Source of the DNA: Draconibacterium sediminis | GTDB taxonomy: Bacteria > Bacteroidota > Bacteroidia > Bacteroidales > Prolixibacteraceae | Length of the DNA stretch: 64,000 nucleotides | Assembly: GCF_000949475.1 (NCBI RefSeq) | Contig: NZ_JRHC01000001.1 | Location: 2,108,001-2,172,000 of the forward strand | Reading direction: 5' to 3' | Part shown: positions 29,292-49,029 of the stretch, one piece after another | How positions within the stretch are numbered: the first letter of the stretch is position 1 | Layout of the letters: each line of letters opens with the position of its first letter | The notes under the pieces: model-generated | The model's database searches: none | What the model saw: only the letters and a program-made list of their open reading frames with translations | Told to the model about the DNA's origin: nothing | Translations under genes and position numbers: made by a program

Positions 29292-29308
29292 TTTGCTAAG
29301 GGCTTAGC

Positions 29309-29344
29309 GCAAAGAGCAGAGGGAAAAGGCGCCGTGCTCTTTGC
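29309..29344. repeat. Hairpin between the two carboxyspermidine genes
   Basis: Perfect 10-base stem GCAAAGAGCA/TGCTCTTTGC with a 16-base loop. The outer sequences (GCGCAAAGAGCAGAGGG and CCCTCTGCGCC) can form an alternative pairing. It is located in the 70-base gap between two co-directional genes. It looks like a dispersed repeat of the GCGCAAAGAGC type, or an attenuating hairpin. Confidence 0.55.
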
Positions 29345-29361
29345 CCTCTGCGCCTGGCTTG

Positions 29362-30555: not shown

Positions 30556-30567
30556 TTTCTTAATCAA

Positions 30568-31009
30568 TCATTTTAATTCAATAACATAAAACATATTCTC
30601 ATGAATATTGTAATTTCGTTCGAAGATTACAAAAAAATCAGAGACAAATTAAGCATTTTTTTTAATGGGTGAAACTTTCGAAAATAAAGATTTTAATGCA
30701 AATGGTGTAGGGCTGAAAAACGATAATATTATTGAGCCTTCGTTTGGTAAAATTGTGGCAGGCGTTTGTTGTTTTCCTGATTTTAATATTTCAGCCGCTT
30801 TAATAAATAAATTAAGTTGTTTGGCCTGTTAATTTTGATTGGTGCTACTTATTTTTTTACTTTGAAAGAACGTTTCAATTTGTTTGGAACATTAAAATAG
30901 GAGAGTGTTTGGGGTGATTTCATTTTATGGCGCATTTATTCGAAAAAATTATATTTATTTGCGCTTTGAAAAAAATACAAAAACACTAATAATTTTTATG
31001 GCTACGTAG
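30568..31009. other. Intergenic region between divergent polyamine genes
   Basis: About 440 A/T-rich bases. It contains a short inverted repeat TTGAAAGAACGTTTCAA near 30862. One 55-codon frame on the plus strand (30665-30832) has no family resemblance and A/T-rich composition, and I do not call it. No riboswitch was recognised. Confidence 0.4.
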
Positions 31010-32425
31010 ATGAAGAATACTTATTTTGATTTGATTGAACAAAGCTACTACTTCCCGCAGGAAGGCTTTGATTTAAGAGGCGATTCGTTAACGTTTCACG
31101 GAATCTCTTTAAAATATCTGATTAAAAAATACGGTACCCCGTTTCGGTTTATATACCTGCCGAAAATTGGGGAGCAAATCAAAAAATCGCGTAACCTGTT
31201 TAATAAGGCCATAAAAAAGAACAATTATACCGGCAAATATTATTATTGTTATTGTACAAAATGTAACCACTTTTCGCATGTGGTTAACGAGGCTTTAAAA
31301 CACAATGTAAACCTCGAAACTTCTTCATCATACGATATCGACTTGATCTTGCATCTTTTTAAGGATAAAAAGATCGATAAAAACCGTAAGATCATTCATA
31401 ACGGATATAAAACGCAGGAATACCTTACAAAGATTATTGAGCTTCAACGGCTTGGGTTTAAGAATAATATTATTGTTTTGGATAGTATTAACGAACTGGA
31501 GCGAATTGAAAAACTGGCCAATGGCGAAAAGGTAAAAGTGGGTATCCGAATGGCCATAAACGAGGAGTCGCAGTCGGCTTACTACACCTCGCGATTGGGA
31601 ATCAGACACACCAAGATCCCGGAGTTTTTTCAAAATCAGATTAAAGGAAAGAAAAACATCGAATTAAAGATGCTTCATTTTTTTGTTGATTCAGGAATTA
31701 AAGACAGTTTGTATTTCTGGGGCGAGTTCCAAAAAGCCATGAAGCTGTACGTGGAGTTGAAAAAACAATGCGATACGCTCGATTCGTTTAACCTCGGTGG
31801 GGGTTTCCCAATTCGTAACCACCTGGGGTTTGAGTACGATTATGAGTACATGATTAAAGAAATTGTTTCGAATATAAAAACAGCCTGCTCGGCTGAAAAC
31901 CTGCCTGATCCGGATATTTATACCGAGTTTGGCAAATATACGGTTGGCGAAAGTGGCGCGATTATTTTCGAGGTGTTGGAGCAAAAGCAGCAAAACGATA
32001 CCGAAAGCTGGTACATTATTAACAACAGTTTAATGAACACCATTCCGGATTCGTGGTCGATCTTCGAGAAATTTATTTTACTGCCGATCAACAAATGGAA
32101 TAACGAATACAAACGTGCCAATATTGGCGGTATCAGTTGCGACCACTCGGACTATTACAACTCGGAAGACTTTAACCAGGAGGTTTTGCTGCCTTCGTAT
32201 TCCGACGATGACAAGGAGCCGCTGTATCTTGGGTTCTTCCACACCGGTGCCTATCAGGATGCCATTAGTGGTTATGGTGGAATTAAACACTGTTTGATTC
32301 CGGCACCAAAACATGTAATTATCGATCGCGACGAGAAAGGTAATTTCTTCGATTATGTATATCGTAACGAGCAGTCGGCTGAGGAAATGTTCAAGATTTT
32401 AGGTTATACCAAGGACGAGGAATAG
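31010..32425 (+). CDS. speA: Biosynthetic arginine decarboxylase (PLP fold-type III)
   Basis: A 471-residue enzyme of the SpeA-type family, shorter than the enterobacterial enzyme (about 630-660) but usual for Bacteroidota. The PLP lysine lies in CYCTKCNHFSH near residue 83. Other barrel motifs are IHNGYKTQEY, GIRMAINEES, MLHFFVDSGI, FNLGGGFPI, YTEFGKYTVGESG and, at the C-terminus, FFHTGAYQDAISGYGG. It makes agmatine from arginine, feeding putrescine for the carboxyspermidine route encoded divergently. The deiminase and amidohydrolase steps are not in this window. Confidence 0.9.
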   Translation: MKNTYFDLIEQSYYFPQEGFDLRGDSLTFHGISLKYLIKKYGTPFRFIYLPKIGEQIKKSRNLFNKAIKKNNYTGKYYYCYCTKCNHFSHVVNEALKHNVNLETSSSYDIDLILHLFKDKKIDKNRKIIHNGYKTQEYLTKIIELQRLGFKNNIIVLDSINELERIEKLANGEKVKVGIRMAINEESQSAYYTSRLGIRHTKIPEFFQNQIKGKKNIELKMLHFFVDSGIKDSLYFWGEFQKAMKLYVELKKQCDTLDSFNLGGGFPIRNHLGFEYDYEYMIKEIVSNIKTACSAENLPDPDIYTEFGKYTVGESGAIIFEVLEQKQQNDTESWYIINNSLMNTIPDSWSIFEKFILLPINKWNNEYKRANIGGISCDHSDYYNSEDFNQEVLLPSYSDDDKEPLYLGFFHTGAYQDAISGYGGIKHCLIPAPKHVIIDRDEKGNFFDYVYRNEQSAEEMFKILGYTKDEE

Positions 32426-36361: not shown

Positions 36362-37393
36362 TTATTCGTTAATGGTGCCGCGTTGGCTTAATAATATGGC
36401 AAATGGTCGTGTACCCGGAAATTCAGACATTATAATGATGAGGATAACTGTGATTGGTACACTTAACAGCATGCCTGAAATTCCCCAGATCACACCCCAA
36501 ATGGCCAGTGTAAGAAATACCACGAGCGGGCTTATGTTTAGTGAATTGCCCATTAATTTAGGCTCGATAAAGTTGCCAACAACCAATTGAATGGCGCCCA
36601 CAATTGAGAGAACTAAAATTCCGGGAGTGATTTCGCCGAACTGTAATATGGCGAATATGGCCGGAAATGCAGTGGCAATAAGCGATCCGATGGTGGGAAT
36701 AAAGTTGAGCACAAAAATGAGAAAGGCCCAGAAAACCGGTGCATCGATACCAATAAAAAGTAAGGCAAAATAACTCAGAAAACCAGTTAAAAGACTGGTC
36801 AGGGTTTTCAGTGCAATATAGTTTCCAATGGAGTGATCAATTTTATCAACCAGTTTTTTTACATGTTCATGACGTTCCTTATCAGGGTACATGGCTTTTA
36901 ATTTCTTTGGAAAAATTGGCTCTTCCAACAGCAAAAACAGGAGATAAAGTAACACGGTGAAGGCGTTACCAAATAGTCCGGTTAAGGTGCTGAAGAGCGA
37001 TGAAAGAATGCTCCCGAAGTTCAGGTCCTTGGCAAAATTTCCGGCCATATCCATGAGGTCGATATCAAATTGCTGGTTGATCTGCTGGGCTATTTTATTT
37101 ACGTTGGCTTCGTAATCCGGTAAAGTATTCGACAGCGTTTTAATGTTTTTCGAAATCATGATAACAGCCAGTGTCAAAAAGCCGATCAGCACCAGCGTGG
37201 AAAACAGGGTGATAATCCATTTGGGCATGCGGCCAATGAATTTCACTTTCACCAGTAACTTTTTAATTACCCGGATGAGGAACCAAAATAATATGGCCAA
37301 AATAAACGGGATAATAATGGATTGGGCGTAAATACAAACCACAACAATTGTGATAAGGACTAAGAAAATGTAAATCTTTTTGCTTGTTTCCAT
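36362..37393 (-). CDS. AI-2E family (PerM-like) transporter
   Basis: A 343-residue membrane protein, counted from METSKKIYIFLVLIT; an upstream in-frame start would add a 28-residue Cys- and Lys-rich, non-hydrophobic extension. It has about eight helices in the AI-2E/PerM arrangement: pairs near the N-terminus, a soluble segment (about 95-150), and the C-terminal block with FLIFVLNFIPTIGSLIATAF and ISPLVVFLTLAIWGVIWGIS (the strongest family signature). Members are implicated in autoinducer or sodium/proton exchange, so the substrate is uncertain. The CMD-family gene lies just downstream on the same strand. Confidence 0.88.
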   Translation of the reverse strand: METSKKIYIFLVLITIVVVCIYAQSIIIPFILAILFWFLIRVIKKLLVKVKFIGRMPKWIITLFSTLVLIGFLTLAVIMISKNIKTLSNTLPDYEANVNKIAQQINQQFDIDLMDMAGNFAKDLNFGSILSSLFSTLTGLFGNAFTVLLYLLFLLLEEPIFPKKLKAMYPDKERHEHVKKLVDKIDHSIGNYIALKTLTSLLTGFLSYFALLFIGIDAPVFWAFLIFVLNFIPTIGSLIATAFPAIFAILQFGEITPGILVLSIVGAIQLVVGNFIEPKLMGNSLNISPLVVFLTLAIWGVIWGISGMLLSVPITVILIIIMSEFPGTRPFAILLSQRGTINE

Positions 37394-37548
37394 GAGGTAG
37401 AAATTAATTGGGGAAAATACAAAAAACTTCGTTGCCCGTTTACAATGGCTTTTGCAAACTTGTTCAGACAGGAACAATAAGTTTGTTATAGGCTTTAAAA
37501 TTAAGCGACTAACCGAACTTTTGTTTTCCTGAAATCTTCTAATTCATA

Positions 37549-38880
37549 TCAGCAACTGATTTTTGCCGATTCTTTTAAGCCCCATTCTTCTTTCATGGTA
37601 ATTCCAAGTTTCTCCAGTTCTGTTAAAACAGGCTCATAGATACTTTTTGAAACCGGAATATGAACGCCAGTGTCGGTAATTTTTCCGTCCAGGATCATTT
37701 TAACAGCAATGGCGGCCGGTAACCCAACAGTTCTCGCAATCGATGTATCTTCTTTAGTGGCAAAATCAAGTAGTCGCGATTTAATAACTTCAATGCTTCC
37801 GTCGGCATTCTTAACCAAAAATGAGTGAAGCATGATAACCATATCGCGGGCACCTTCGGGCAACATCATTTTTTTGAGCATCAGGTCGGTAACCATATCA
37901 AAGTTTGAGCCTTCGTCCATTGCAACCATATAATCGCTGAAAAGCCCCAGCCATTCCATTGCTAAAATTGCCGGGCTGTCGATTGGCAGCCGTAGGCGCT
38001 CAGCAGCTTTTTCTTTAATGTTGGCCGGATAAACATCCAGCTGGCGTGCCATAATTTTTTTGTAGGTTTTTCCGGCAAAACTTTGTTTGTCGTATGTAAC
38101 CAATCCAAGCGTTTTTATGGCATCCATTATTTCGCACCAGTTAGGGTAACGGAAAGTTCCGCGATACATGGTTGTAACATCTTTTAATCCGTACTGATCG
38201 ATGTATGCCAGCGAGTCGCGATTCGGATAAACCTCCATTTCCCCAACTTCAGGGAAATCAATTTTTAATGGATTTTTAAAGAGGTCTTCTGTTGGTAGCT
38301 CAACAATTTCTCCGCCTTTTAAATATTTTGCACCGTTATTTCCGGCCATAATCACACCTTTTGGCGACCACGAGAATTTATATTTAAACGGATTGTTGGT
38401 TTCTTCGGGTGCTGCCAACGCACCACACAACGAGTAAAATTCTTTAACCTTGCCACCTTTGTCTTTCACCTTGTCGATAATTCGCATGGCCGTCATGTGG
38501 TCGAATCCCGGATCAACACCTATCTCGTTCAGAATAATAATACCGGCTTTTTTCGCTTCTGGATCTAAAGCTTTCATTTCTTCCGATACATACGAAGTGG
38601 TAACCATGTTTTTTTTGTGTTGAATACACAATTTGGCAACTGTTACATGATACGCATAAGGCAGCAGACTGACTGTTAAATCGTGGCTTGCAATTAACTC
38701 ATCCAGTTGAGTAAGATCATCGGTGGTCCATTGCGTGGCTTTGCCGTTGGCACGGTTTCTTATTAATTTATCGGCTTTGGCAAGTGTGCGGCTGGCAATG
38801 GTTAATTCTATTTGGTTATCAAGAATATAATCGGCAAGTGGTTTGGCCACCATCCCGGCGCCAAGTAATAGTACTTTCAT
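37549..38880 (-). CDS. Saccharopine dehydrogenase-like oxidoreductase (LYS9 type), copy A
   Basis: A 443-residue NAD(P)-dependent enzyme, counted from MKVLLLGAGMVAKPLADYI with the Rossmann motif GAGMVA. The family signature is LNEIGVDPGFDHMTAMRII (about 145-163), followed by FYSLCGALAAPEETNNPFKYK, NRDSLAYIDQYGL and the C-terminal ARTVGLPAAIAVKMIL. This is the saccharopine dehydrogenase (glutamate-forming) or saccharopine reductase type; lysine 6-dehydrogenases share the fold. It is transcribed away from the aminomutase/CoA-transferase run that includes a second such gene, so it probably supplies 2-aminoadipate semialdehyde from lysine or saccharopine. Direction in vivo is inference. Confidence 0.88.
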   Translation of the reverse strand: MKVLLLGAGMVAKPLADYILDNQIELTIASRTLAKADKLIRNRANGKATQWTTDDLTQLDELIASHDLTVSLLPYAYHVTVAKLCIQHKKNMVTTSYVSEEMKALDPEAKKAGIIILNEIGVDPGFDHMTAMRIIDKVKDKGGKVKEFYSLCGALAAPEETNNPFKYKFSWSPKGVIMAGNNGAKYLKGGEIVELPTEDLFKNPLKIDFPEVGEMEVYPNRDSLAYIDQYGLKDVTTMYRGTFRYPNWCEIMDAIKTLGLVTYDKQSFAGKTYKKIMARQLDVYPANIKEKAAERLRLPIDSPAILAMEWLGLFSDYMVAMDEGSNFDMVTDLMLKKMMLPEGARDMVIMLHSFLVKNADGSIEVIKSRLLDFATKEDTSIARTVGLPAAIAVKMILDGKITDTGVHIPVSKSIYEPVLTELEKLGITMKEEWGLKESAKISC

Positions 38881-39511
38881 CGTATTAAAATTGTTTTTAA
38901 AAGGCATAAGATGGAACTCGCATGATAGTTATAATGCCTATTTCTGACAGTCTTTTTCATGCTCGTTTCATTTTTTCTGCTTTCTGTTTGTTTCCAATTA
39001 TTCAAACGAAAATTATAAGAATTCGTTCGATAATTTTCACCCTGGTTTCTATCTGAATTTATTGTCCTGATCAAAAAAAATGGATTTTTAATTGATGCAA
39101 TAAACTTCTTTTTTTCAGCCCCTTAAGTTGCTAAAAATTTACTGAACAAAAGATGATATCTACCATTTTTATAAATTATGGTAAAAATCATGGGCTTCTG
39201 GCTCAAATTTTTATAAATTGTGCACATGGTACAATCGTATTCATGTCCTGTATTTTTCTATCTAGGCATGCCGGAGTGCCTCGATGATGATACGGTTTCA
39301 CATTAGCTGCAACCGCAGTTATTTTTATTCCATAACTCTTATTGACGCTTGTCAATGTTTTTTACTGTATTAATTCCTTTCAAATCGGTGTGTCGATAAG
39401 ACGGATTCGGAATGAAGCGCAACAGCCTTACTACATGGTTCGTATACAACTGTGTATGTGCTATTGTGTGTATTATGAAATTTTCAATATGAACTTTTAA
39501 TATCAAAAGAG
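38881..39511. other. Divergent regulatory region of the proposed lysine-degradation cluster
   Basis: About 630 bases with no credible ORF. It holds an inverted repeat at 39008-39038 (GAAAATTAT/ATAATTTTC), two copies of ATTTTTATAAATT at 39165-39177 and 39207-39219, a GC-rich hairpin near 39264-39283 (AGGCA/TGCCT) and ATTGAC-N4-GTCAAT at 39341-39356. I did not recognise a lysine riboswitch. A clear TAnnTTTG promoter was not found on either strand. Confidence 0.6.
39161..39222. promoter_or_regulatory. Candidate paired operator sites
   Basis: The 13-base sequence ATTTTTATAAATT occurs twice, exactly 42 bases apart (four helical turns). Flanks are also similar: CC-ATTTTTATAAATT-ATGG and CAA-ATTTTTATAAATT-GTG. 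The first copy is bounded by TACCAT/ATGGTA. This suggests two same-face sites for a dimeric regulator. Confidence 0.45.
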
Positions 39512-41080
39512 ATGATTAGTACGAAGGAGTCATTGAATATTGCAGAAATGATGCGTGCTTACGATTTTACGCCCGAAACAATACAAACCATTAATAACGA
39601 GAAACTTTTGCCTGCCGGTTTAGTTCGGCGTTTACAAAAATGTTATCCTCAGTATTCCCAATTTTCAAAACAAAAGGACCCACTTTTTAAAGGAAAAACA
39701 CATTACTCAGGATTAAACGGTTTTCGCGAAATTTTACAGGTGCTAAAAGCTAACGGAGTTGAGCTCGACAACATTAAGGAACGCGAGTTTTTCCTGGAGG
39801 TTTACCGTTTTATGGCTACCAAACATATTCTGAATACAATTGATTGGAGCAACTATAAAAATGATCCGAATTATTACCTCGTATTTCCGCAGCCTGATAT
39901 GATTAACAAAGCGGATGTACAAAGATACCTGGACGCCGACAGCGACGAAGAAAGACGGAAAGTTGTTGAAGCCTACCAGTTAAAAACCAATCCGCACGAC
40001 GGGAAACAGAAACTAAACAAACCTTTCTTTTATAACGAAGAGGGGCAAATAGAAATTCTGGAAGGTAGCCAGCACAAGTACCCGCCAATTAAACTGATTT
40101 TGGATGCCGGAACACAAAACTGTTTTGCTTTTTGCACTTACTGTTTCAGGCATGCACAGGTTCGTGGCGACGAGGACATGTTTGTGCAGCACGATATCAA
40201 CCAGGTGCACAAGTACCTGAAAAAGCACAAAGAAGTCACCGACATTTTGATTACAGGTGGAGATGCAGGGTACATTTCTTACAGGCGTTTAAAAGAATAC
40301 CTCATACCAATTCTGGAAGATGACGAGCTTTTGCATATTCGTACGCTACGAATCGGCTCAAGGGCTATTACTTTTCATCCTGAGCATTTGCTGACCGATC
40401 AGTTCAAAGAAATACTGGAACTGCTGAGAATGACCGTTGAAAATGGTATTCAGGTGGTTTGGATGTCACATACATCAACACCGCGTGAAATACTGAATCC
40501 CGGAGCAATTGCCGCCATTCAGCGACTAAAAAAATACGGCATTAAAGTGAAGAGCCAAAGTCCGATTATGAACACCATTAGTTTGTATAAGGATGAAAAT
40601 GGAAAAGTGGACGTGAATCGTTCGGCACAAAACTGGATAGATTTGGGCAATATTCTGGCCATGGTAGGAATTGGTTTCCATTCGATGTACTGCGCACGGC
40701 CAACCGGCGAGCATCATCATTTTACGGCTCCACTGGCCGACATCACAAAAGTATTCAATAAGGTGTATCGTAGTTTGGCGTCGATAAATCGCCCGTCGCG
40801 ATACATCACTATGACTTCCTCTGCCGGAAAAACTTCTCTGATGGGAACAACCGAGATTGATGGCGAAAAAGTGTTTGTGCTCAAATTCAACGAAGCCCGG
40901 AACATGGAGTGGATGGACCGCGTATATTTTGCCGAGTACGACGAGCAGGAAAACACGATAGAAAAGTTAAAGCCGTACAAGACTGACAAATACTTCTACG
41001 AAGAAGAACTGGAGGAGATTGAGGGCAGACTGGAAGAGGCGTTAAAAAAAGAATCGTTAAAAATGGCAAACCATGATTAA
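39512..41080 (+). CDS. KamA-family radical SAM aminomutase, proposed 2-aminoadipate 2,3-aminomutase
   Basis: A 522-residue radical SAM/PLP enzyme. The 4Fe-4S motif is C204-x3-C208-x2-C211, SAM motif TGGDAG (248-253), and the PLP lysine is Lys440 in SSAGKTSLMG. It is about 100 residues longer than typical lysine 2,3-aminomutase. In clostridial KamA, as I recall it, two aspartates in RGVND and YIYQCD hold the lysine side-chain amine. Here these positions read MNTIS (353-357) and SMYCARP (391-397), so both acids are gone and Arg396 is nearby. That suits a substrate with a distal carboxylate. Genomic context suggests 2-aminoadipate to 3-aminoadipate. The family is certain; the substrate is inference. 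It overlaps the next gene by 8 bases. Confidence 0.8.
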   Translation: MISTKESLNIAEMMRAYDFTPETIQTINNEKLLPAGLVRRLQKCYPQYSQFSKQKDPLFKGKTHYSGLNGFREILQVLKANGVELDNIKEREFFLEVYRFMATKHILNTIDWSNYKNDPNYYLVFPQPDMINKADVQRYLDADSDEERRKVVEAYQLKTNPHDGKQKLNKPFFYNEEGQIEILEGSQHKYPPIKLILDAGTQNCFAFCTYCFRHAQVRGDEDMFVQHDINQVHKYLKKHKEVTDILITGGDAGYISYRRLKEYLIPILEDDELLHIRTLRIGSRAITFHPEHLLTDQFKEILELLRMTVENGIQVVWMSHTSTPREILNPGAIAAIQRLKKYGIKVKSQSPIMNTISLYKDENGKVDVNRSAQNWIDLGNILAMVGIGFHSMYCARPTGEHHHFTAPLADITKVFNKVYRSLASINRPSRYITMTSSAGKTSLMGTTEIDGEKVFVLKFNEARNMEWMDRVYFAEYDEQENTIEKLKPYKTDKYFYEEELEEIEGRLEEALKKESLKMANHD

Positions 41081-41795
41081 CAAGATCGTGAATTCGGCAA
41101 AAGAAGCGGTTGCCGGAATTTTCGATGGAGCAACCGTAATGATAAGTGGTTTTGGTGAGGCCGGCAGCCCGGTGGAATTGATTCATGCGCTGGTCGATCA
41201 GGGAGCAAAAGACCTGACCGTTGTGAGTAACAACGCCGGAAGCGGGCATGTTGGGCTGGCAGCACTTATCGAAAACCGGCAGGTAAAAAAGATTCTCTGC
41301 TCTTTTCCGCGTACTGCTATTTCTGTTGTATTTCCGGAGTTGTACCGGGCGGGCGAAATTGAACTGGAACTGGTGCCGCAGGGAACGTTAGCTGAACGCA
41401 TTCGTGCAGGCGGCGCAGGAGTTCCGGCATTTTATACACCTGCAACTGTAAATACTCCATTGGCAGAAGGGAAAGAAATACGCGAGTTTAATGGACGGCA
41501 ATACGTAATGGAAGAAGCTATTCAGGCCGATTTTGCTTTGGTGAAATGTGCTGCTGCCGATAAGTACGGCAATCTCATTTACAACAAAACAGCCCGCAAT
41601 TTTGGGCCGGTAATGTGTATAGCTGCAAAAACAACTATTGTACAAGCCAAACAGGTGGTTGAGCTTGGAACTATCGATCCCGAACATGTAGTAACACCGG
41701 GAATTTTTGTTCATCGCGTAGTGGAAATTTCCAATCCGGCAGATGAATCGAAACTGGTTGCCGAAAATGTAAAGTACCATGGAATCAGACAATAA
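41073..41795 (+). CDS. pcaI: 3-oxoadipate CoA-transferase subunit A-like
   Basis: A 240-residue family I CoA-transferase alpha subunit. The CoA-binding motif is GFGEAGSPVELI near 25-36, with SNNAGSG (about 50-56) and VPQGTLAERIRAGGAG after it. The segments LCSFPR, YRAGEIELE, LAEGKEIREFNGRQYV, ARNFGP and ELGTIDPEHVVTPGIFV agree better with PcaI than with succinyl-CoA:acetoacetate (ScoA/AtoD) subunits as I remember them. With PcaJ it would move CoA from succinyl-CoA to 3-oxoadipate. The ATG lies within the end of the aminomutase gene, and the stop codon overlaps the next gene by 17 bases, so the three are translationally coupled. Confidence 0.82.
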   Translation: MINKIVNSAKEAVAGIFDGATVMISGFGEAGSPVELIHALVDQGAKDLTVVSNNAGSGHVGLAALIENRQVKKILCSFPRTAISVVFPELYRAGEIELELVPQGTLAERIRAGGAGVPAFYTPATVNTPLAEGKEIREFNGRQYVMEEAIQADFALVKCAAADKYGNLIYNKTARNFGPVMCIAAKTTIVQAKQVVELGTIDPEHVVTPGIFVHRVVEISNPADESKLVAENVKYHGIRQ

Positions 41796-42435
41796 AATTA
41801 CAGGTTGGAGCACCGGCGAAATGGCGCAAAAAGTTGCCATGGATATTCATGACGGTGCATATGTAAATCTAGGGATTGGCATTCCTGAAATGGTTGCCGG
41901 ATTTATTCCCGAAGGGCGCGAAGTGATCTATCATACAGAAAATGGATTGCTGGGTATGGGAAAAGTCGCTGAAGTTGGTTGTGAAGATCCGGAGTTGGTA
42001 AATGCCGGTAAAAAGTATATAACAGCGATTCCCGGCGCGGCTTATTTTCATCATGCCGACAGTTTTGCCATGATACGCGGCGGCCACATTGATGTATGTG
42101 TGTTGGGTGCATACCAGGTTTCGGAAGAAGGCGATTTGGCCAATTGGTCTACCGGAAATGCAAATGATATTCCCGCAGTGGGAGGTGCCATGGATTTGGT
42201 GGCCGGTGTGAAAACCATTTATGTCATCACAAAACACACGACCAAAACCGGCGAATCGAAAATTGTAAAACAGTGTACTTATCCTTTAACGGGGAAGAAT
42301 GTGGTGAGTCGAATCTATTCCAATTATGCGATAATTGATGTCAAAGAGAAACAGCTTTTTGTGAGGGAACTGGCTCCCGGAGTGAGTTTCGATTTTTTGC
42401 AGAAACATACCGAAGCAACGTTGCATCAGAAATAA
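41779..42435 (+). CDS. pcaJ: 3-oxoadipate CoA-transferase subunit B-like
   Basis: A 218-residue beta subunit carrying the catalytic glutamate, Glu54, in TENGLLGMG. N-terminal EMAQKVAMDIHDGAYVNLGI and the middle HHADSFAMIRGGHIDVCVLG are family features. The stretch DLANWSTGNANDIPAVGGAM and TKTGESKIV, CTYPLTG, VSRIYSN follow PcaJ, where ScoB/AtoA have a different segment before VGGAM. This supports 3-oxoadipate over acetoacetate as acceptor, although some subunits are promiscuous. It overlaps the A subunit by 17 bases and precedes the aminotransferase gene by 18 bases. Confidence 0.82.
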   Translation: MESDNKITGWSTGEMAQKVAMDIHDGAYVNLGIGIPEMVAGFIPEGREVIYHTENGLLGMGKVAEVGCEDPELVNAGKKYITAIPGAAYFHHADSFAMIRGGHIDVCVLGAYQVSEEGDLANWSTGNANDIPAVGGAMDLVAGVKTIYVITKHTTKTGESKIVKQCTYPLTGKNVVSRIYSNYAIIDVKEKQLFVRELAPGVSFDFLQKHTEATLHQK

Positions 42436-42453
42436 ATCAGTAAGTACAGAAAG

Positions 42454-43797
42454 ATGGCTAAAAAAGAAAATAGCGAAGAAATATATAACAAGGCACGTCA
42501 GGTAATAAGTGGCGGAGTGAGCCGGAATACAGTTTTCCGGATGCCATATCCGAATTATGCCAACAGTGCCTCAGGTTGTTACATTACCGATATTGACGGT
42601 ACAGTACGCACCGATTTCGCCAATAATATGGCAGCATTAATTCACGGGCATTCGTTTCCGCCAATAGTAGATGCGGTTATCGGGCAGCTAAAAAAAGGAA
42701 CAGCCTACACACTTGCTTCCGAAATTGAAGTTGCTTTTGCCACTCACCTGATCGAACGTGTGCAGAGTTTCGAGCGTATACGTTTTATGAATTCAGGTAC
42801 CGAAGCGGTAATGGCCATGATAAAAGCTTCGAGGGCGTTTACCGGCCGGCCAAAAATTGCAAAAGCCGAAGGCGCTTATCATGGTACTTATGATTTTGCG
42901 GAGGTGAGTCAAATGGCAGATCCAACAAATTGGGGGAAGGAAGATCAGCCCAGCAGTGTTGCGTTGGCTCATGGGACACCACAATCTGTAACCAAAGACG
43001 TGGTTATTTATCCGTACAACAACATTGACCGAACGCTGAATATCTTGGATAAACATGCTTCAGATATTGCCTGTGTTATCGTTGATCCTGTTCCTCACCG
43101 GGTAGGTCTGGTTCCCGGTAACAATGATTTTATAGAGGCGCTTTACAGCTGGACCAGGAAAAACGAGGCTTTACTGGTTTTTGATGAGGTGATAACTTTT
43201 CGGGTGAATTATGGCGGGGCACAGGAAAATTATTCCGTAAAACCCGATCTGACATCGCTTGGGAAGATAATCGGTGGCGGATTCCCTGTTGGTGCTGTTG
43301 CCGGAAGAGCAGATGTGATGCAGGTTTTCGATCCACACGAAAAGAATCTTCTGTTGCCTTATTCCGGAACGTTCTCGGCTAATCCGATAACCATGACTGC
43401 CGGTTACCAGGCCATGAAGTATTATGATTCGGAAGCGGTGACGCAGCTAAATCTACTTGCCGATGTTGCAGTTAAACAGATACGCGAAGTGATAAAACTT
43501 GCCGGTGTTCCGGTTTCGGTTACCGGCGCCGGTTCAATGTTAAGGATGCATCTTCGTCCCGATCCGCCGACAACTTACCGTGAGGCTTATATGGACAAAG
43601 AAGGCAAAAAGCTGGTTAATGAATTGCTGGACTATATGTATTACAAAGAAAATACGCTGATGATCAATACTTTCTCGTGTATGCTTTCAACGGTAATGAC
43701 ACAAAAGGAAATTGATCAACTCTCTGAAGGATTGCACCGGGCGTTCACAACATTTAAACCAAGGATTGAAAAACTAAACAAAGATAACTATGAATAA
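42454..43797 (+). CDS. Class III aminotransferase, GSA-like; proposed 3-aminoadipate (beta-amino acid) transaminase
   Basis: A 447-residue PLP enzyme. Motifs: MNSGTEAVMAMIKASRAFTG (112-131), Asp244 in VFDEVITFR that binds the PLP ring nitrogen, and the Schiff-base Lys271 in SLGKIIGGGFPVGA. It looks like glutamate-1-semialdehyde aminomutase, but a heme-pathway enzyme would be unexpected here. The SRNTVF segment (Arg24) and GTFSANPITMTAGYQ recall beta-phenylalanine transaminases, which are relatives of that aminomutase. Position between a KamA-like aminomutase and pcaF suits conversion of 3-aminoadipate to 3-oxoadipate. Annotation pipelines would probably call it hemL-like. It overlaps the thiolase gene by 8 bases. 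Confidence 0.78.
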   Translation: MAKKENSEEIYNKARQVISGGVSRNTVFRMPYPNYANSASGCYITDIDGTVRTDFANNMAALIHGHSFPPIVDAVIGQLKKGTAYTLASEIEVAFATHLIERVQSFERIRFMNSGTEAVMAMIKASRAFTGRPKIAKAEGAYHGTYDFAEVSQMADPTNWGKEDQPSSVALAHGTPQSVTKDVVIYPYNNIDRTLNILDKHASDIACVIVDPVPHRVGLVPGNNDFIEALYSWTRKNEALLVFDEVITFRVNYGGAQENYSVKPDLTSLGKIIGGGFPVGAVAGRADVMQVFDPHEKNLLLPYSGTFSANPITMTAGYQAMKYYDSEAVTQLNLLADVAVKQIREVIKLAGVPVSVTGAGSMLRMHLRPDPPTTYREAYMDKEGKKLVNELLDYMYYKENTLMINTFSCMLSTVMTQKEIDQLSEGLHRAFTTFKPRIEKLNKDNYE

Positions 43798-44992
43798 CGT
43801 TTTTATTTGCGATGCGATACGCACGCCGGTTGGAAAATATGGAGGTTCACTGTCGGCGATCCGGGCAGATGATCTGGCGGCCATTCCCATAAAAACTTTG
43901 CTGGAACGTAACGATCAGATCGACCCGGCAGCGTTTGATGATGTGCTAATGGGATGTGCTAATCAGGCCGGAGAAGATAACAGAAATATTGCACGGATGG
44001 CTTTGCTTTTGGCCGGAATGCCGGAGTCGGTTCCGGGAGTGACGATAAACCGATTGTGTTCTTCCGGGATGGAAGCCATCGGAATGGCGGCGCGCGCCAT
44101 AAAAGCAGGCGAGGCTGAGCTGATGATTGCCGGTGGAGCTGAAAATATGTCGCGATCGCCATTGGTAATGCCAAAAGCAACACAGGCTTTTTCCCGAAAT
44201 GCAGAAATATATGACTCAACCATCGGCTGGCGTTTTGTGAACAACAAATTTCAGGAAAAATATGGAACAGATCCGCTTATTTGCACTGCTGAGAATCTGG
44301 CCTCAGAATTTAAGATCAGTCGCGAAGATCAGGATCGTTTTGCACACAACAGTCAGCTTAAAACGGCTGAAGCTCAGCAAAACGGGGCACTGGCCCGGGA
44401 AATAATTCCGGTTTCCATTCCGCAGCGAAAAGGCGATCCGATAATCTTTGAAATGGATGAACACCCGCGGCTGACTTCGCTTGAAAAACTGGCGTCGCTA
44501 AATCCTGTTTATGGACCGGGAACAACAGTTACTGCAGGCAATGCATCGGGCATTAACGACGGGGCAGCAGCTGTAATTGTAGCATCGGAAGCGGCAGTTA
44601 AGAAGTTCAATCTAACTCCGAAAGCCAGAATTTTGGGCACGCAGGCAGCTGGTGTACCACCACGTACCATGGGGATTGGACCGGTACCGGCCACCAATAA
44701 GCTTTTAAAACGATTGGGGATGCGACTGGACCAAATGGATATTATCGAATTAAATGAAGCATTCGCAGCACAATCGCTGGCCTGCATCCGTGAGTTTGGA
44801 ATGGCAGACGATGATCTACGAGTGAATCCGCTTGGCGGAGCAATTGCACTCGGACACCCGCTGGGAATGTCAGGAGCGCGTTTGGTTACCACAGCAATTT
44901 ATCAGCTGCAAAATTCAAACTCAAAATTCGCGCTTTGTACCATGTGTGTTGGCGTTGGCCAGGGAGTTTCAATGGTCTTGGAAAAGGTTTAA
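43790..44992 (+). CDS. pcaF: 3-oxoadipyl-CoA thiolase
   Basis: A 400-residue thiolase. Nucleophile Cys90 in NRLCSSGMEA, His in GGAIALGHPLG and acid/base Cys386 in CTMCVGVGQG complete the active site. The PcaF-type (rather than acetoacetyl-CoA-type) character is seen in FICDAIRTPVGKYGG, RADDLAAIP, GCANQAGEDNRN, IYDSTIGWRFVN and PQRKGDPIIFEMDEHPR. It cleaves 3-oxoadipyl-CoA with CoA to succinyl-CoA and acetyl-CoA, which would regenerate the CoA donor used by PcaIJ. The product assignment rests on by-eye resemblance from memory; general thiolase function is certain. Confidence 0.85.
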   Translation: MNNVFICDAIRTPVGKYGGSLSAIRADDLAAIPIKTLLERNDQIDPAAFDDVLMGCANQAGEDNRNIARMALLLAGMPESVPGVTINRLCSSGMEAIGMAARAIKAGEAELMIAGGAENMSRSPLVMPKATQAFSRNAEIYDSTIGWRFVNNKFQEKYGTDPLICTAENLASEFKISREDQDRFAHNSQLKTAEAQQNGALAREIIPVSIPQRKGDPIIFEMDEHPRLTSLEKLASLNPVYGPGTTVTAGNASGINDGAAAVIVASEAAVKKFNLTPKARILGTQAAGVPPRTMGIGPVPATNKLLKRLGMRLDQMDIIELNEAFAAQSLACIREFGMADDDLRVNPLGGAIALGHPLGMSGARLVTTAIYQLQNSNSKFALCTMCVGVGQGVSMVLEKV

Positions 44993-45028
44993 AAGATAAG
45001 AATATATCTGCCCGCTTGTAGGATAGAG

Positions 45029-45070
45029 TTTTCCCCTTGAGGGGAAGTGCCGATAGGCAAAGGGGTGATG
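45029..45070. repeat. Dispersed G/C-run palindrome, copy 1
   Basis: A run pairing TTCCCCTTGAGGGGAA, followed by a GGCAAAGGGG segment, in the 120-base gap between the thiolase and ALDH7 genes. Related in style to copies at 46717-46780 and 54261-54322. Confidence 0.5.
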
Positions 45071-45113
45071 ATAATTTAATAAGTAGAATTTATAAACAAC
45101 TAAAAATAGTACA

Positions 45114-46655
45114 ATGAAAATTGACATCTCAAAAGAATTAAAACAGTTAGGAATTAGTGAAGTTAATAATGGTGTTTGCACCGGAATCGAATGGAAAACA
45201 ACGTCCGGTGCAGCTGTTGAATCGTTTTCGCCATCGGACGGGGAATTGATTGCAAGCGTAAATCAGGCAACCGCTACCGACTACCACGAGGTGGTGAAAA
45301 AAGCAAAAGATGCTTTTAGAGTTTGGCGGATGGTGCCGGCTCCAAAACGAGGCGAGATAGTGCGCCAAATTGGACTGGAACTTCGTAAATTCAAGGAACC
45401 GCTCGGAAAATTGGTTTCGTACGAAATGGGTAAAATTTACCAGGAAGGTTTGGGCGAGGTGCAGGAAATGATCGATATCTGCGATTTTGCTGTTGGTCAG
45501 TCGCGCCAGTTATATGGTTTTACCATGCATTCGGAACGGGAAAAGCACCGCATGTACGACCAGTATCATCCGCTTGGAATTGTGGGAGTTGTCTCTGCTT
45601 TTAACTTTCCGGTTGCTGTTTGGGCCTGGAACGCAATGATCGCTTTGGTAGCGGGTGATGTGGTTATTTGGAAACCTTCATCAAAAGTATTTTTATGTGC
45701 TATTGCCGTTCACAATATTGTTGCTAAAGTTTTAAAAGAAAACGATGTTCCAGAAGGTGTTTTGAGTCTGGTAGCCGCTGGTTCGCGCGAATTGGGCGAT
45801 GAGTTTTTCAGCGACAAAAATATTCCGTTGGTGTCGTTTACCGGCTCAACAAAAATTGGTAAAAAAGTTGGTGGTCTTGTTGGTCAGCGTTTGGGGAAAA
45901 CAATCCTTGAACTTGGCGGAAACAATGCCATAATAATCACTCCTGAGGCCGATATTGAAATGGCGCTTCGTGCAGTTGTTTTTGGTGCAGTGGGTACTTG
46001 CGGTCAGCGTTGTACTTCCACACGCCGCATTATTGTTCACGATTCGGTTTACGAAGATTTTAAAAACCGATTGATCACCATTTACGGGCAGTTACCCATT
46101 GGTCATGCCCTGGATGAAAAAACACTGGTTGGCCCGCTGGTTGATCGCTGGGCTGTGGATACTTACCTGGCCGCCATCGAAAAGGTAAAAGCACAGGGCG
46201 GAAAACTGTTGATCGGCGGAGAAGTGTTGACGGGAGAAGGATACGAATCAGGTTGTTTTGTAACTCCGGCTATCGCTGAAGTGGAAAATCATTACGAAAT
46301 CGTTCAGGACGAAACGTTTGCTCCTCTACTATACATGATTCGCTATTCCGAATTTGATGAAGCCATTCGTTTGCACAATGATGTACCGCAGGGATTATCA
46401 TCGGCAATTTTCTCAACGCACCTATTGGAAACCGAAAAATTCCTTTCGCATGAAGGATCGGATTGCGGAATTGCCAATGTAAATATTGGAACGTCGGGTG
46501 CCGAAATAGGCGGCGCTTTTGGTGGCGAGAAAGAAACAGGCGGTGGTCGCGAGTCGGGCTCCGATGCCTGGAAAGCTTACATGCGACGCCAGACCAACAC
46601 AATAAATTACAGTACAGAGCTTCCATTGGCTCAGGGAATTGAGTTTAATGTTTAA
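45114..46655 (+). CDS. amaB: 2-aminoadipate-6-semialdehyde dehydrogenase (ALDH7/antiquitin type)
   Basis: A 513-residue NAD-dependent aldehyde dehydrogenase. Active-site Glu266 in LELGGNNAII, nucleophile Cys300 in GTCGQRCTSTRR. The double-Asn ELGGNNA and GQRCTSTRR patterns are hallmarks of ALDH7 (antiquitin), which oxidises 2-aminoadipate semialdehyde to 2-aminoadipate in lysine catabolism. N-terminal YHPLGIVGVVSAFNFPVAVW is also typical. This is the enzyme that best identifies the pathway as lysine degradation. It is 121 bases after the thiolase on the same strand. Confidence 0.92.
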   Translation: MKIDISKELKQLGISEVNNGVCTGIEWKTTSGAAVESFSPSDGELIASVNQATATDYHEVVKKAKDAFRVWRMVPAPKRGEIVRQIGLELRKFKEPLGKLVSYEMGKIYQEGLGEVQEMIDICDFAVGQSRQLYGFTMHSEREKHRMYDQYHPLGIVGVVSAFNFPVAVWAWNAMIALVAGDVVIWKPSSKVFLCAIAVHNIVAKVLKENDVPEGVLSLVAAGSRELGDEFFSDKNIPLVSFTGSTKIGKKVGGLVGQRLGKTILELGGNNAIIITPEADIEMALRAVVFGAVGTCGQRCTSTRRIIVHDSVYEDFKNRLITIYGQLPIGHALDEKTLVGPLVDRWAVDTYLAAIEKVKAQGGKLLIGGEVLTGEGYESGCFVTPAIAEVENHYEIVQDETFAPLLYMIRYSEFDEAIRLHNDVPQGLSSAIFSTHLLETEKFLSHEGSDCGIANVNIGTSGAEIGGAFGGEKETGGGRESGSDAWKAYMRRQTNTINYSTELPLAQGIEFNV

Positions 46656-46716
46656 TAGATCAGTCGAGATGTCAAAAAAGTAATAGTAGAAATGACGTGT
46701 TCAATTTTTAAATAAT

Positions 46717-46780
46717 GACCCCACCCGGCCTCCCCAAAGGGGAGGAGAAAGTCCCCCTTTGGGGGATTTAGGGGGTATTT
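46717..46780. repeat. Dispersed G/C-run palindrome, copy 2
   Basis: Two adjacent palindromes: CCTCCCCAAAGGGGAGG and TCCCCCTTTGGGGGA, preceded by CCCCACCCGG. It lies between the ALDH7 gene and the second saccharopine-dehydrogenase-like gene. Strongly similar to the element downstream of typA. Confidence 0.75.
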
Positions 46781-46873
46781 GATAAAAACGATCTCAGTTT
46801 GTACATCATTTTCTATTTTAACTTTATAGACAGTCCATGTTAACTCGTGGCTCGTAGCTAATAGCTAAAAAGT

Positions 46874-48223
46874 ATGAAAAACATATTAATATTTGGTGCC
46901 GGTAGGTCGAGCGTATTTTTGCTCACCTATCTGGCCGAACGTGCATCAAAATATCACTGGCACATAAAAGTTGTTGACGCTGAAGAAAGCGAATTGGCAA
47001 GATCGTTAAAACTGGCTTTTGCGATTTTAAATGTGCGGGATGAATTTGCCCGTGATCAGGAAGTTCGCGAAGCCGACCTGGTAATTTCCATGTTGCCTGC
47101 ACGCTTTCATAAACTGGTGATGCAATCTTGCCTGAAATATTCGAAAAGCTTGTTTACGGCTTCTTACGAAAGTAAAGAGATTCAGCAGGTTGAAGATGAG
47201 GTGAAAAGTAAAGGTCTGTTGTTTTTAAACGAGTGCGGATTGGATCCCGGCCTCGATCACATGTCAGCCATGCGTGTGATCAACCAGATTAAACAGGAAG
47301 GCCATCAGTTGGAGGCTTTTGAATCATTTACGGGTGGTTTGGTTGCTCCCGAATCGGATGATAATCCGTGGCACTACAAGTTTAGCTGGAATCCGCGAAA
47401 TGTGGTGTTGGCAGGGCAGGGCGGACCTGCAAAATTTATCCAGAAAGGAAAAGTAAAGTACATTCCGTACAACCGTTTATTTCGCAGAACGGAGTTGATT
47501 AATATTGATGATTACGGTTGGTTTGAAGGTTATGCCAACCGCGATTCGTTGAGTTATATCGATAAATATGGATTGCAGGAGGTTCCCACTGTTTTCCGGG
47601 GAACTTTGCGTCGACCGGGTTTTTGTAAAGCATGGAATGTGTTTGTGCAGTTGGGTGCTACCAGCGACGATCACTATATCGACAATGTGGAAGACATGAC
47701 CTACCGCGAGTTTATCAACTCCTTTTTGTATTACCATCCTGCAACGGTCGATCTGAAACTGTATCATTCGATGCAAATTCCTATGGACTCGGAGATTATT
47801 CCAAAACTGGAATGGTTGGGAATTTTTGATAACCGGAAAATTGGTTTAAAACGTGCCACGCCTGCCCAGGTGATGGAAAAGTTACTTTCGGAAAAATGGC
47901 AATTGATGCCCGAAGACAAAGACATGATCGTGATGTGGCACAAGTTTGAATACCTGGATCGCGATACTAAGGATAAAGTGGAGAAGAACAGCTCGTTGGT
48001 GGTAATTGGAGAATCGGGAGAGAAAACAGCTATGGCAAAAACCGTAGGTTTACCGCTTGCCGTTGCAGCCAAATTGTTTCTGACCGATAAACTCAACCAC
48101 CGTGGAATTTATATACCAACGCATCCCGATATTTATGAACCTATTTTAGACGAACTGGAAAGTTTTGGTATCAAATTCACCGAAACGGAGAAAAAGTTAG
48201 TAGGACAGGAAGATACGTTTTAA
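46874..48223 (+). CDS. Saccharopine dehydrogenase-like oxidoreductase, copy B
   Basis: A 449-residue paralogue of the gene on the other side of the cluster. Shared features: N-terminal Rossmann motif (LIFGAGRSSVFLL, here GAGRSS rather than GAGMVA), LNECGLDPGLDHMSAMRVI, the FTGGLVAPESDDNPWHYKFS stretch, NRDSLSYIDKYGL and AKTVGLPLAVAAKLFL. The dinucleotide-binding loop differs clearly from copy A (a longer insertion, ERASKYHWHIKVVDAEE), so the two may differ in cofactor or direction. No separate lysine-ketoglutarate reductase domain was found in the window, making a division of labour between the copies plausible (inference). Confidence 0.87.
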   Translation: MKNILIFGAGRSSVFLLTYLAERASKYHWHIKVVDAEESELARSLKLAFAILNVRDEFARDQEVREADLVISMLPARFHKLVMQSCLKYSKSLFTASYESKEIQQVEDEVKSKGLLFLNECGLDPGLDHMSAMRVINQIKQEGHQLEAFESFTGGLVAPESDDNPWHYKFSWNPRNVVLAGQGGPAKFIQKGKVKYIPYNRLFRRTELINIDDYGWFEGYANRDSLSYIDKYGLQEVPTVFRGTLRRPGFCKAWNVFVQLGATSDDHYIDNVEDMTYREFINSFLYYHPATVDLKLYHSMQIPMDSEIIPKLEWLGIFDNRKIGLKRATPAQVMEKLLSEKWQLMPEDKDMIVMWHKFEYLDRDTKDKVEKNSSLVVIGESGEKTAMAKTVGLPLAVAAKLFLTDKLNHRGIYIPTHPDIYEPILDELESFGIKFTETEKKLVGQEDTF

Positions 48224-48240
48224 AGAAAAACAATCTTCCC

Positions 48241-49029
48241 TTATTTTATCAATCTAAGTACGGATAAAACGGCACAGTGGTCGGAAGCAATTTCATCGCA
48301 AATAACTTCCGTTTCCACAACTTGCCACTTGCCGGCAGGCCTGAAAAATATGTAATCGATCTTTATTTCAGGATCATTGGATGGATAAGTAAAAGCGCCT
48401 TTTTGGTCGTTTGCTGTCCAGTATTCTTTAAGAATTGAAATTGGTTCGCTGTTGGGGGTAGCATTTAAATCTCCGGCTAAAATTGTCGGGTACTTGCACG
48501 GGGCAAAAACTTCATTGATGGTTTTTACCTGGTCGATTCGGTCTGTACTGTTTTCCTGGTGCTCCAAATGAGTGCCGATAAAACTGATGGTGTCGCCTGA
48601 TTCCAGTTGCACCAATACCTGAAGTGCTGCCCGCGGTTCATTGTTGGGTGAGTGAGGTAGCGGTACATTTTTGCTCGACAGGATGGGCATCTTTGTCAGT
48701 ATTCCTTCACCGTATCCGCCACCGTCATAAGGCATGGCAATACCAAATAAGGGCGCCATTTTCGTTCGCCAGCCCAGCTCGGTAACCAAGTCGTAATTTT
48801 TGGCGCGGTTGGTTTTAAAGTCAACTTCCTGTAAGGCTACGAGGTCTGGATTTGTGCTCTTGATTACCGATGCGATCTTGTCTAAATCAAAATCGCCTTT
48901 GGTCGTTGCACCGTGCAAAATATTGAAGGTCAGAACGCGAACCATTATTTCTTCATCACTTGTATTCTGTGCAGTAAGTGTATTGAATGTTAAAACGAGA
49001 GTGAGTATAGAAAGTATCAGTTTTGTCAT
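48241..49029 (-). CDS. Endonuclease/exonuclease/phosphatase family protein, exported
   Basis: A 262-residue protein with a signal peptide (MTKLILSILTLVLTFNTLTAQ). The EEP fold motifs are present: VLTFNILHGAT, LVALQEVDFKTNR with the metal-binding Glu, the HLEHQENSTDR region, ILAGDLNATPNS, and the terminal SDHCAV. It is a metal-dependent phosphodiesterase, possibly acting on nucleic acid, phosphoinositides or sphingomyelin-type lipids; the substrate is unknown. Convergent with the lysine cluster's last gene (17-base gap), with no obvious link. Confidence 0.88.
   Translation of the reverse strand: MTKLILSILTLVLTFNTLTAQNTSDEEIMVRVLTFNILHGATTKGDFDLDKIASVIKSTNPDLVALQEVDFKTNRAKNYDLVTELGWRTKMAPLFGIAMPYDGGGYGEGILTKMPILSSKNVPLPHSPNNEPRAALQVLVQLESGDTISFIGTHLEHQENSTDRIDQVKTINEVFAPCKYPTILAGDLNATPNSEPISILKEYWTANDQKGAFTYPSNDPEIKIDYIFFRPAGKWQVVETEVICDEIASDHCAVLSVLRLIK

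Follow-up and report, generated by a model that had tools for sequence, protein, structure and literature searches.

Catabolism of lysine by the saccharopine route employs lysine-ketoglutarate reductase (LKR; part of the fused AASS protein), saccharopine dehydrogenase (SDH) and the aldehyde dehydrogenase ALDH7 to reach 2-aminoadipate, which in the known continuations is converted to 2-oxoadipate, from which either glutaryl-CoA or, through the action of HglS, 2-hydroxyglutarate is formed. The lower beta-ketoadipate pathway uses a PcaIJ-type CoA-transferase, the CoA donor of which we take to be succinyl-CoA, and the thiolase PcaF, with succinyl-CoA and acetyl-CoA as end products, and the oxygen-independent KamA-KamDE-Kdd-Kce-Kal/Kat fermentation combines an aminomutase, a CoA-transferase and a thiolase. 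Genes that resemble parts of all three systems stand together at positions 37549-48223 of a 64-kb stretch of the 6.0 Mb genome of Draconibacterium sediminis (G000:C1:2108001-2172000), hereafter called the window. There is a good probability that these genes serve an oxygen-independent catabolism of lysine via 2-aminoadipate, 3-aminoadipate and 3-oxoadipyl-CoA, in which no 2-oxoadipate would be made and the lower beta-ketoadipate reactions would be entered from an amino acid, probably as CoA ester, without ring cleavage.

The core of the locus is a run of five forward-strand genes: KAM (39512-41080), a KamA-like radical-SAM/PLP enzyme and the proposed 2-aminoadipate 2,3-aminomutase, the CoA-transferase subunits A (41073-41795) and B (41779-42435), AT (42454-43797), a HemL-like class III aminotransferase, and THL (43790-44992), a PcaF-type 3-oxoadipyl-CoA thiolase. 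Coupling is tight, as KAM and subunit A overlap by 8 bases, A and B by 17 and AT and THL by 8, with a gap of 18 bases between B and AT. The run is flanked by SDH1 (37549-38907, reverse strand) on one side and by ALDH7 (45114-46655) and SDH2 (46874-48223), both on the forward strand, on the other. All eight reading frames listed in the original prediction are present, and its assignment of them to families agrees with the NCBIfam, Pfam and PDB matches.

In the proposed pathway, LKR and SDH would convert lysine via saccharopine to 2-aminoadipate 6-semialdehyde, which ALDH7 would oxidise, as piperideine-6-carboxylate, to 2-aminoadipate; these are also the first three reactions of the saccharopine route. 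KAM, with a side-chain pocket switched from amine to carboxylate, would turn 2-aminoadipate into 3-aminoadipate by a C2-to-C3 shift of its amino group, the CoA-transferase would form 3-aminoadipyl-CoA with succinyl-CoA as the probable donor, AT would form 3-oxoadipyl-CoA with 2-oxoglutarate as amino acceptor, and THL would cleave the latter to succinyl-CoA and acetyl-CoA. As THL releases succinyl-CoA, the CoA used in activation would be returned, and with succinyl-CoA as donor the net reaction would be 2-aminoadipate + 2-oxoglutarate + CoA -> glutamate + succinate + acetyl-CoA. The sequences themselves show the gene families, their order and conservation, the active-site residues and the presence of LKR in the genome; which substrate KAM uses, whether CoA transfer or transamination comes first, and the direction and physiology of the pathway are what we infer here. 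A radical-SAM step suits anoxic life.

The two ends of the pathway define what has to happen in between. ALDH7 scores 800 bits against the L-piperidine-6-carboxylate dehydrogenase model NF050084 (cut-off 730) and has alpha-aminoadipic semialdehyde dehydrogenase among its PDB matches, and THL scores 660 bits against TIGR02430 pcaF (cut-off 597), with thiolase 8gqh and the beta-ketoadipyl-CoA thiolase 6pca nearest in the PDB and a common stretch D-x-T-x-G-W-R-F-x-N. Between the 2-aminoadipate delivered by ALDH7 and the 3-oxoadipyl-CoA used by THL, the amino group has to be shifted from position 2 to 3 and removed, and CoA has to be attached; judged by their families, KAM, AT and the CoA-transferase can carry out these reactions. 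Subunits A and B score 360 bits against TIGR02429 pcaI_scoA_fam (cut-off 128.5) and 297 bits against TIGR02428 pcaJ_scoB_fam (cut-off 243.55), respectively. AT matches PF00202 and reaches 332 bits, below the cut-off of 527, with TIGR00713 hemL; its nearest PDB entries are 6k8h and ForI, followed by HemL, with beta-transaminases ranking lower.

The side-chain pocket of the aminomutase

The sequence of the window's KAM was aligned with 72 locus proteins of more than 470 residues (7 of the 79 loci described below were omitted as short or unclustered) and with lysine 2,3-aminomutase (LAM; 2a5h), the genome's own lysine-type aminomutase, its own second KAM-like protein and L115, a glutamate 2,3-aminomutase (EAM) reference that exceeds the TIGR04368 cut-off (716 versus 650 bits) and comes from a genome other than the 43 operon genomes surveyed below, 1 of 297 genomes. 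The three cluster cysteines of CxxxCxxC and the counterparts of LAM Arg134 and Lys337, presumably the alpha-carboxylate and PLP sites, are retained in 73/73 KAM sequences. LAM Asp293 and Asp330, which we take to bind the side-chain ammonium of lysine, are replaced in all 73, the former by Arg396 and the latter by Thr/Ser (residues in the window's protein: C204, C208 and C211 of the cluster, R213, R396, T433 and K440). The EAM reference has Lys and Asn at these two positions, such that KAM shares with it in kind, not in identity, a cation at the Asp293 position and an uncharged residue at the Asp330 position. The loss of both amine-holding aspartates, one of them to arginine, favours a substrate that carries a carboxylate on its side chain, 2-aminoadipate being one example. 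KAM thus appears to be built as a 2,3-aminomutase, for which lysine is an unlikely substrate.

The pairing of Asp293 with Arg396 was reproduced in five of six further alignments. The AlphaFold model of KAM has a mean pLDDT of 83.9, with values below 50 at residues 212-220, the stretch holding Arg213, and superimposes on LAM 2a5h over 329 residues with an rmsd of 3.7 and a VIA Z of 28.6, compared with Z 12.0 for the chain ranked second, other folds being possible; Foldseek gave TM 0.51-0.52 (query length) at an rmsd of 8.6-8.9. KAM has in common with KamA and EAM the fold, the cysteine motif, the PLP lysine and the alpha-carboxylate arginine, and with EAM a positive side-chain pocket, but differs by a longer N-terminal part and by Arg/Thr in place of Asp/Asp or Lys/Asn.

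KAM stays under every cut-off of the KamA family, with 64 bits against the lysine 2,3-aminomutase model TIGR03820 (cut-off 525), and 59 bits against the glutamate model TIGR04368 (cut-off 650), and also slightly under that of Pfam Radical_SAM (25.0 versus 29.5). LAM_C (PF12544) was not reported for KAM at 1e-3, the only match in the genome being the other aminomutase on contig C15. A search of 43 operon genomes with TIGR04368 gave a match at 1e-60 in 19 genomes, in none of them over the cut-off.

On the basis of the active-site residues and the family cut-offs, KAM was rejected as a lysine 2,3-aminomutase. That the cluster represents a variant beta-lysine fermentation (KamA, KamDE, Kdd, Kce) or synthesis of beta-lysine as an osmolyte is accordingly very improbable: the KamA-like fold would suit it, as would the CoA-transferase and thiolase that also occur in the KamDE pathway (L112), but both side-chain-amine aspartates are lost throughout, KamD occurs in 2/43 operon genomes, the window's own genome being without it, and this genome encodes an ordinary aminomutase of the lysine type in addition to KAM. 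From the KamDE fermentation the proposed pathway would also differ in that lysine is first oxidised to 2-aminoadipate, no cobalamin aminomutase being found in the own genome, and in that THL would act on 3-oxoadipyl-CoA instead of acetoacetyl-CoA. The ordinary aminomutase (490 bits to 2a5h) is followed by an acetyltransferase-like ORF (L001:672-2835 for the two together), a pair that we read as suited to synthesis of the osmolyte N-acetyl-beta-lysine.

The genome encodes a second KamA-like protein of 450 aa (L095:8620-9972; G000:C15:17754-18959), 30-31% identical to KAM, as a lone gene after rod-shape-like genes; among the 296 genomes of the class sample, 21 others have a shorter KAM-like gene with 32-36% identity.

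Several observations count against assigning 2-aminoadipate from the pocket. Identity between KAM and the aminomutases compared amounts to only 20-22%; one of the six alternative alignments (without L115) and an earlier one place Ala395 on Asp293, with Arg396 next to it; glutamate suits the pocket argument equally; and the second KAM-like protein, which has no operon, carries Arg and Ser, respectively, where LAM has Asp293 and Asp330, so that the arginine alone does not name 2-aminoadipate. KAM could hence use another acidic amino acid, glutamate or one like 2-aminopimelate, with the operon degrading the resulting beta-amino acid and the lysine genes as mere neighbours. The resemblance of the Arg/Thr pocket to EAM speaks for this, as does the lack of the searched lysine genes in nine operon genomes (see below). 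We regard it as improbable, though, as the score of THL above the pcaF threshold indicates a C6 3-oxo dicarboxylate, glutamate would yield 3-oxoglutaryl-CoA and hence malonyl-CoA, presumably a poor catabolic end, KAM lies far under the EAM cut-off, and lysine genes flank the operon in separate lineages.

Conservation of the operon and its linkage to lysine genes

When 84,980 species, each represented by one genome, were scanned with six peptides of KAM, 198 stretches matched a pattern and 80 of these were confirmed, which yielded at least 79 loci, a lower bound that covers close relatives only. Gene order was testable in 65 loci, where the downstream sequence extends over 4.8 kb or more, the remaining 14 being too short. 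The succession KAM, subunit A, subunit B, AT and THL is the same as in the window in 61 of these 65, and the recurrence shows that the five-gene arrangement is more than chance. The four exceptions (L042, L058, L063 and L068) lack THL alone from the run, with a thiolase nearby on the opposite strand in L068, so that both CoA-transferase subunits and AT follow KAM in 65/65.

This regularity bears on the possibility that the CoA-transferase and THL serve aromatic degradation by the beta-ketoadipate pathway, with KAM and AT unrelated. The PcaIJ and PcaF families do constitute the lower part of that pathway, but the constant company of KAM and AT and the rarity of intradiol ring-cleavage genes make this hardly credible: the intradiol dioxygenase family PF00775 is missing from the own genome, on which ground the aromatic pathway was rejected, and is over the cut-off in 4/43 operon genomes (extradiol enzymes were not searched). 

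Rows of the KAM tree bear 11 phylum-level labels, some intermixed (Bacteroidota, Pseudomonadota, Balneolota, Thermodesulfobacteriota, Chlorobiota, Acidobacteriota, Sumerlaeota, Cloacimonadota, Rhodothermota, Ignavibacteriota and Planctomycetota), the labels being taken from submitters' titles and contigs of metagenome-assembled genomes (MAGs) being possibly misbinned. The neighbours of the window's KAM in this tree, L003, L002 and L029 (the last from Draconibacterium orientale), are in keeping with a Draconibacterium-like genome. Among the 296 genomes sampled from the same class (presumably Bacteroidia), this type of KAM was found at 1e-30 in the window's genome only. On balance we favour the view that a radical-SAM 2-aminoadipate 2,3-aminomutase founds an oxygen- and cobalamin-free, CoA-returning route via 3-aminoadipyl-CoA that has spread by inheritance or transfer over the 11 phylum-level groups.

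With respect to the upper part of the pathway, the original prediction held that saccharopine enzymes and ALDH7 in the window cover the conversion of lysine to 2-aminoadipate and that each step has one gene. ALDH7 and SDH are indeed present, but both SDH genes are of the type that converts saccharopine to the semialdehyde, and LKR, the enzyme from lysine to saccharopine, lies outside the window. It is encoded elsewhere in the same genome, about 1.0 Mb away, as a lone gene (G000:C1:1147454-1148665), such that LKR, the L-glutamate-forming saccharopine dehydrogenase and ALDH7 are all available. SDH1 (PF16653 257 bits, PF03435 91 bits; best PDB match 1e5l with 302 bits) and SDH2 (PF16653 267 bits; 1e5l 224 bits) both carry Sacchrp_dh_C and Sacchrp_dh_NADP, are Lys9-type and have saccharopine reductase as top PDB match; in L105, from another operon genome, a protein 60% identical to SDH2 is encoded after ALDH7 and LKR.

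Physical linkage to lysine genes recurs, as ALDH7, SDH or LKR is found in the flanks (10 kb or less, often shorter) of 17/79 loci from four separate lineages: 12 from Prolixibacteraceae and kin, three from delta-proteobacteria, one from Cloacimonadota and one from Motiliproteus. The Cloacimonadota locus (L034) reads SDH-LKR-KAM-CoA-A-CoA-B-AT-THL followed by an amino acid permease, and L074, of Prolixibacteraceae and kin, reads KAM-CoA-A-CoA-B-AT-THL-ALDH7-LKR; LKR was recognised by its AlaDh_PNT domains, and the LKR protein of L074 matches alpha-aminoadipic semialdehyde synthase, in our reading through the LKR half of the latter, and L-lysine-forming saccharopine dehydrogenase in the PDB; the copy in the window's genome is 62% identical. 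ALDH7 flanks the operon in the delta-proteobacteria L033, L042 and L079, and a 40-residue ALDH7 end lies at the contig edge in Motiliproteus (L059). On other contigs, one further operon genome carries ALDH7-LKR-SDH2 (L105) and a second carries ALDH7 with the beginning of LKR behind it (L103).

A gene survey covered 43 operon genomes chosen across the 79 loci, many of them MAGs. LKR was detected in 24 at 1e-3 and in 23 at 1e-20 (the match in G029 being weak), ALDH7 in 27, and lysine 6-aminotransferase (LAT) in three, all without LKR and one with LAT 2.4 kb from ALDH7; at least one of LKR, LAT and ALDH7 occurs in 34/43. In two Desulfuromusa-like genomes without LKR or LAT matches, an ornithine-aminotransferase-like gene just below the TIGR01885 cut-off lies near the operon (L033:16594-17868; L079:16682-17980) and may be the lysine 6-aminotransferase of these genomes.

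These surveys also produced objections to a role in lysine catabolism. No lysine gene lies in the flanks of 62/79 loci, a semialdehyde-forming enzyme and ALDH7 occur together in only 19/43 operon genomes, and nine of the 43 contain neither LKR (1e-20) nor LAT nor ALDH7, namely three Shewanella genomes, one of Photobacterium, that of Motiliproteus SC1-56 with its ALDH7 end at the contig edge, and four others. Furthermore, ALDH7 (262/296 genomes) and LKR (242/296) are near-universal in the class, so that the class-wide co-occurrence of KAM with both was discarded as uninformative and the argument rests on physical linkage. 

Among neighbouring features, a LysR-type regulator flanks the operon in Gammaproteobacteria and delta-proteobacteria (L045:8787-9656; cluster in 13 loci), and several further groups have an XRE-cupin regulator there (L030:9362-9916; cluster in 9 loci), with one or two members of each cluster checked; both likely represent lineage-specific control. 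An Rfam search of 37000-48500 at gathering scores gave no match. At 28155-32425 of the window, a saccharopine-dehydrogenase-family gene (29362-30567) lies between two Orn/DAP/Arg-decarboxylase-family genes, probably a carboxynorspermidine-type polyamine cluster. A function of SDH1 and SDH2 as polyamine carboxysynthases was rejected, as their match to saccharopine reductase spans nearly the full length.

Probable order of the central reactions and established alternatives

The original prediction had AT act on free 3-aminoadipate to give 3-oxoadipate, followed by CoA activation of PcaIJ type. The bridge itself, from 2-aminoadipate via 3-aminoadipate to the 3-oxo level by aminomutase and AT, is supported by the active-site residues of KAM, the lysine-linked conserved operon and LKR in the own genome; free 3-oxoadipate, on the other hand, is probably not an intermediate, 3-aminoadipate being the likelier substrate of the CoA-transferase and 3-aminoadipyl-CoA that of AT. 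The free-intermediate order can draw on the membership of the CoA-transferase subunits in a 3-oxoacid family that includes PcaIJ and on the relatedness of AT also to the free beta-amino-acid transaminases 4ao9 and 2yku. It nevertheless seems unlikely, as free 3-oxo acids readily decarboxylate and the order KAM-CoA-transferase-AT-THL in 61/65 loci, although only suggestive, matches CoA transfer first.

The closest precedent is Kat, a HemL-like enzyme encoded next to a thiolase gene, which transaminates 3-aminobutyryl-CoA and needs the thioester; none of three free beta-amino acids tested was transformed (Perret et al., 2011; PMC3149608). AT is likewise HemL-like, is encoded beside a thiolase gene and would pass the amino group of a CoA ester to 2-oxoglutarate, with the difference that its substrate would bear a second carboxylate. 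From gene order and the Kat precedent we conclude that, provided the operon degrades lysine, CoA transfer probably precedes transamination.

The original prediction further stated that DUF1338 and KamDE/Kdd/Kce genes are absent and named their co-occurrence as a sign against the route. BKACE (Kce), KamD, HGLS and acyl-CoA dehydrogenase Pfam models gave no match at 1e-8 in the scanned ORFs of the window (39 of the 42 flanking ORFs of at least 110 aa), and none was found for KamD (PF09043) anywhere in the own genome. The statement on DUF1338 holds for the window, but the genome does contain a short DUF1338/HGLS gene (C15:20886-21677). Across the 43 operon genomes both signs appeared and speak to some degree against the proposed pathway without excluding it: the two genomes with KamD are both Marinifilum, and 24, including the own genome, have a DUF1338 family match. 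In Marinifilum L112 the neighbours of KamD look like the rest of a KamDE cluster, with a short ORF that is Kal-like by size and place; a search for Kat found no AT homologue in this cluster at 1e-8.

In the flanks of the 79 loci, DUF1338 was found only in Motiliproteus SC1-56 (L059, own protein as query), where it lies beside the operon. The short DUF1338/HGLS gene (about 265-310 aa) follows Ast-like arginine genes in Shewanella sp. UCD-KL12 and Photobacterium obscurum (L100:9469-10263; L102:9446-10246), and that of the own genome (L095:11785-12708) is near unrelated genes, carbohydrate-kinase-like and polyphosphate-kinase-like ORFs. As DUF1338 stands by Ast-like or unrelated genes in these three genomes, its presence does not exclude the route, and the role of the short protein may be other than the 2-oxoadipate reaction of the long HglS.

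Significance for lysine catabolism

Lysine catabolism as such is known; what is probably new is the specificity of the aminomutase. To our knowledge, a 2-aminoadipate 2,3-aminomutase activity has not been reported. In agreement with the original prediction, no description of the route was found in the open-licence PMC literature, to which subscription journals and preprints largely do not belong. Searches of the same literature for 3-aminoadipyl and related compounds gave nothing, and for 3-aminoadipate or its aminomutase they gave only a meteorite study and a title in a reference list. With respect to the production of adipic acid, enzymes that deaminate beta-lysine, lysine or 2-aminoadipate are described as unknown in an engineering paper (PMC7241714), and a review (PMC8706239) reports steps without an enzyme in the route from lysine to adipate.

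If the proposed pathway is correct, 2-aminoadipate would be a new substrate for radical-SAM aminomutases and the operon would provide natural enzymes from lysine to 3-aminoadipate and 3-oxoadipyl-CoA. For bacteria that reach 2-aminoadipate from lysine, it would open an anaerobic exit from this intermediate that bypasses 2-oxoadipate.

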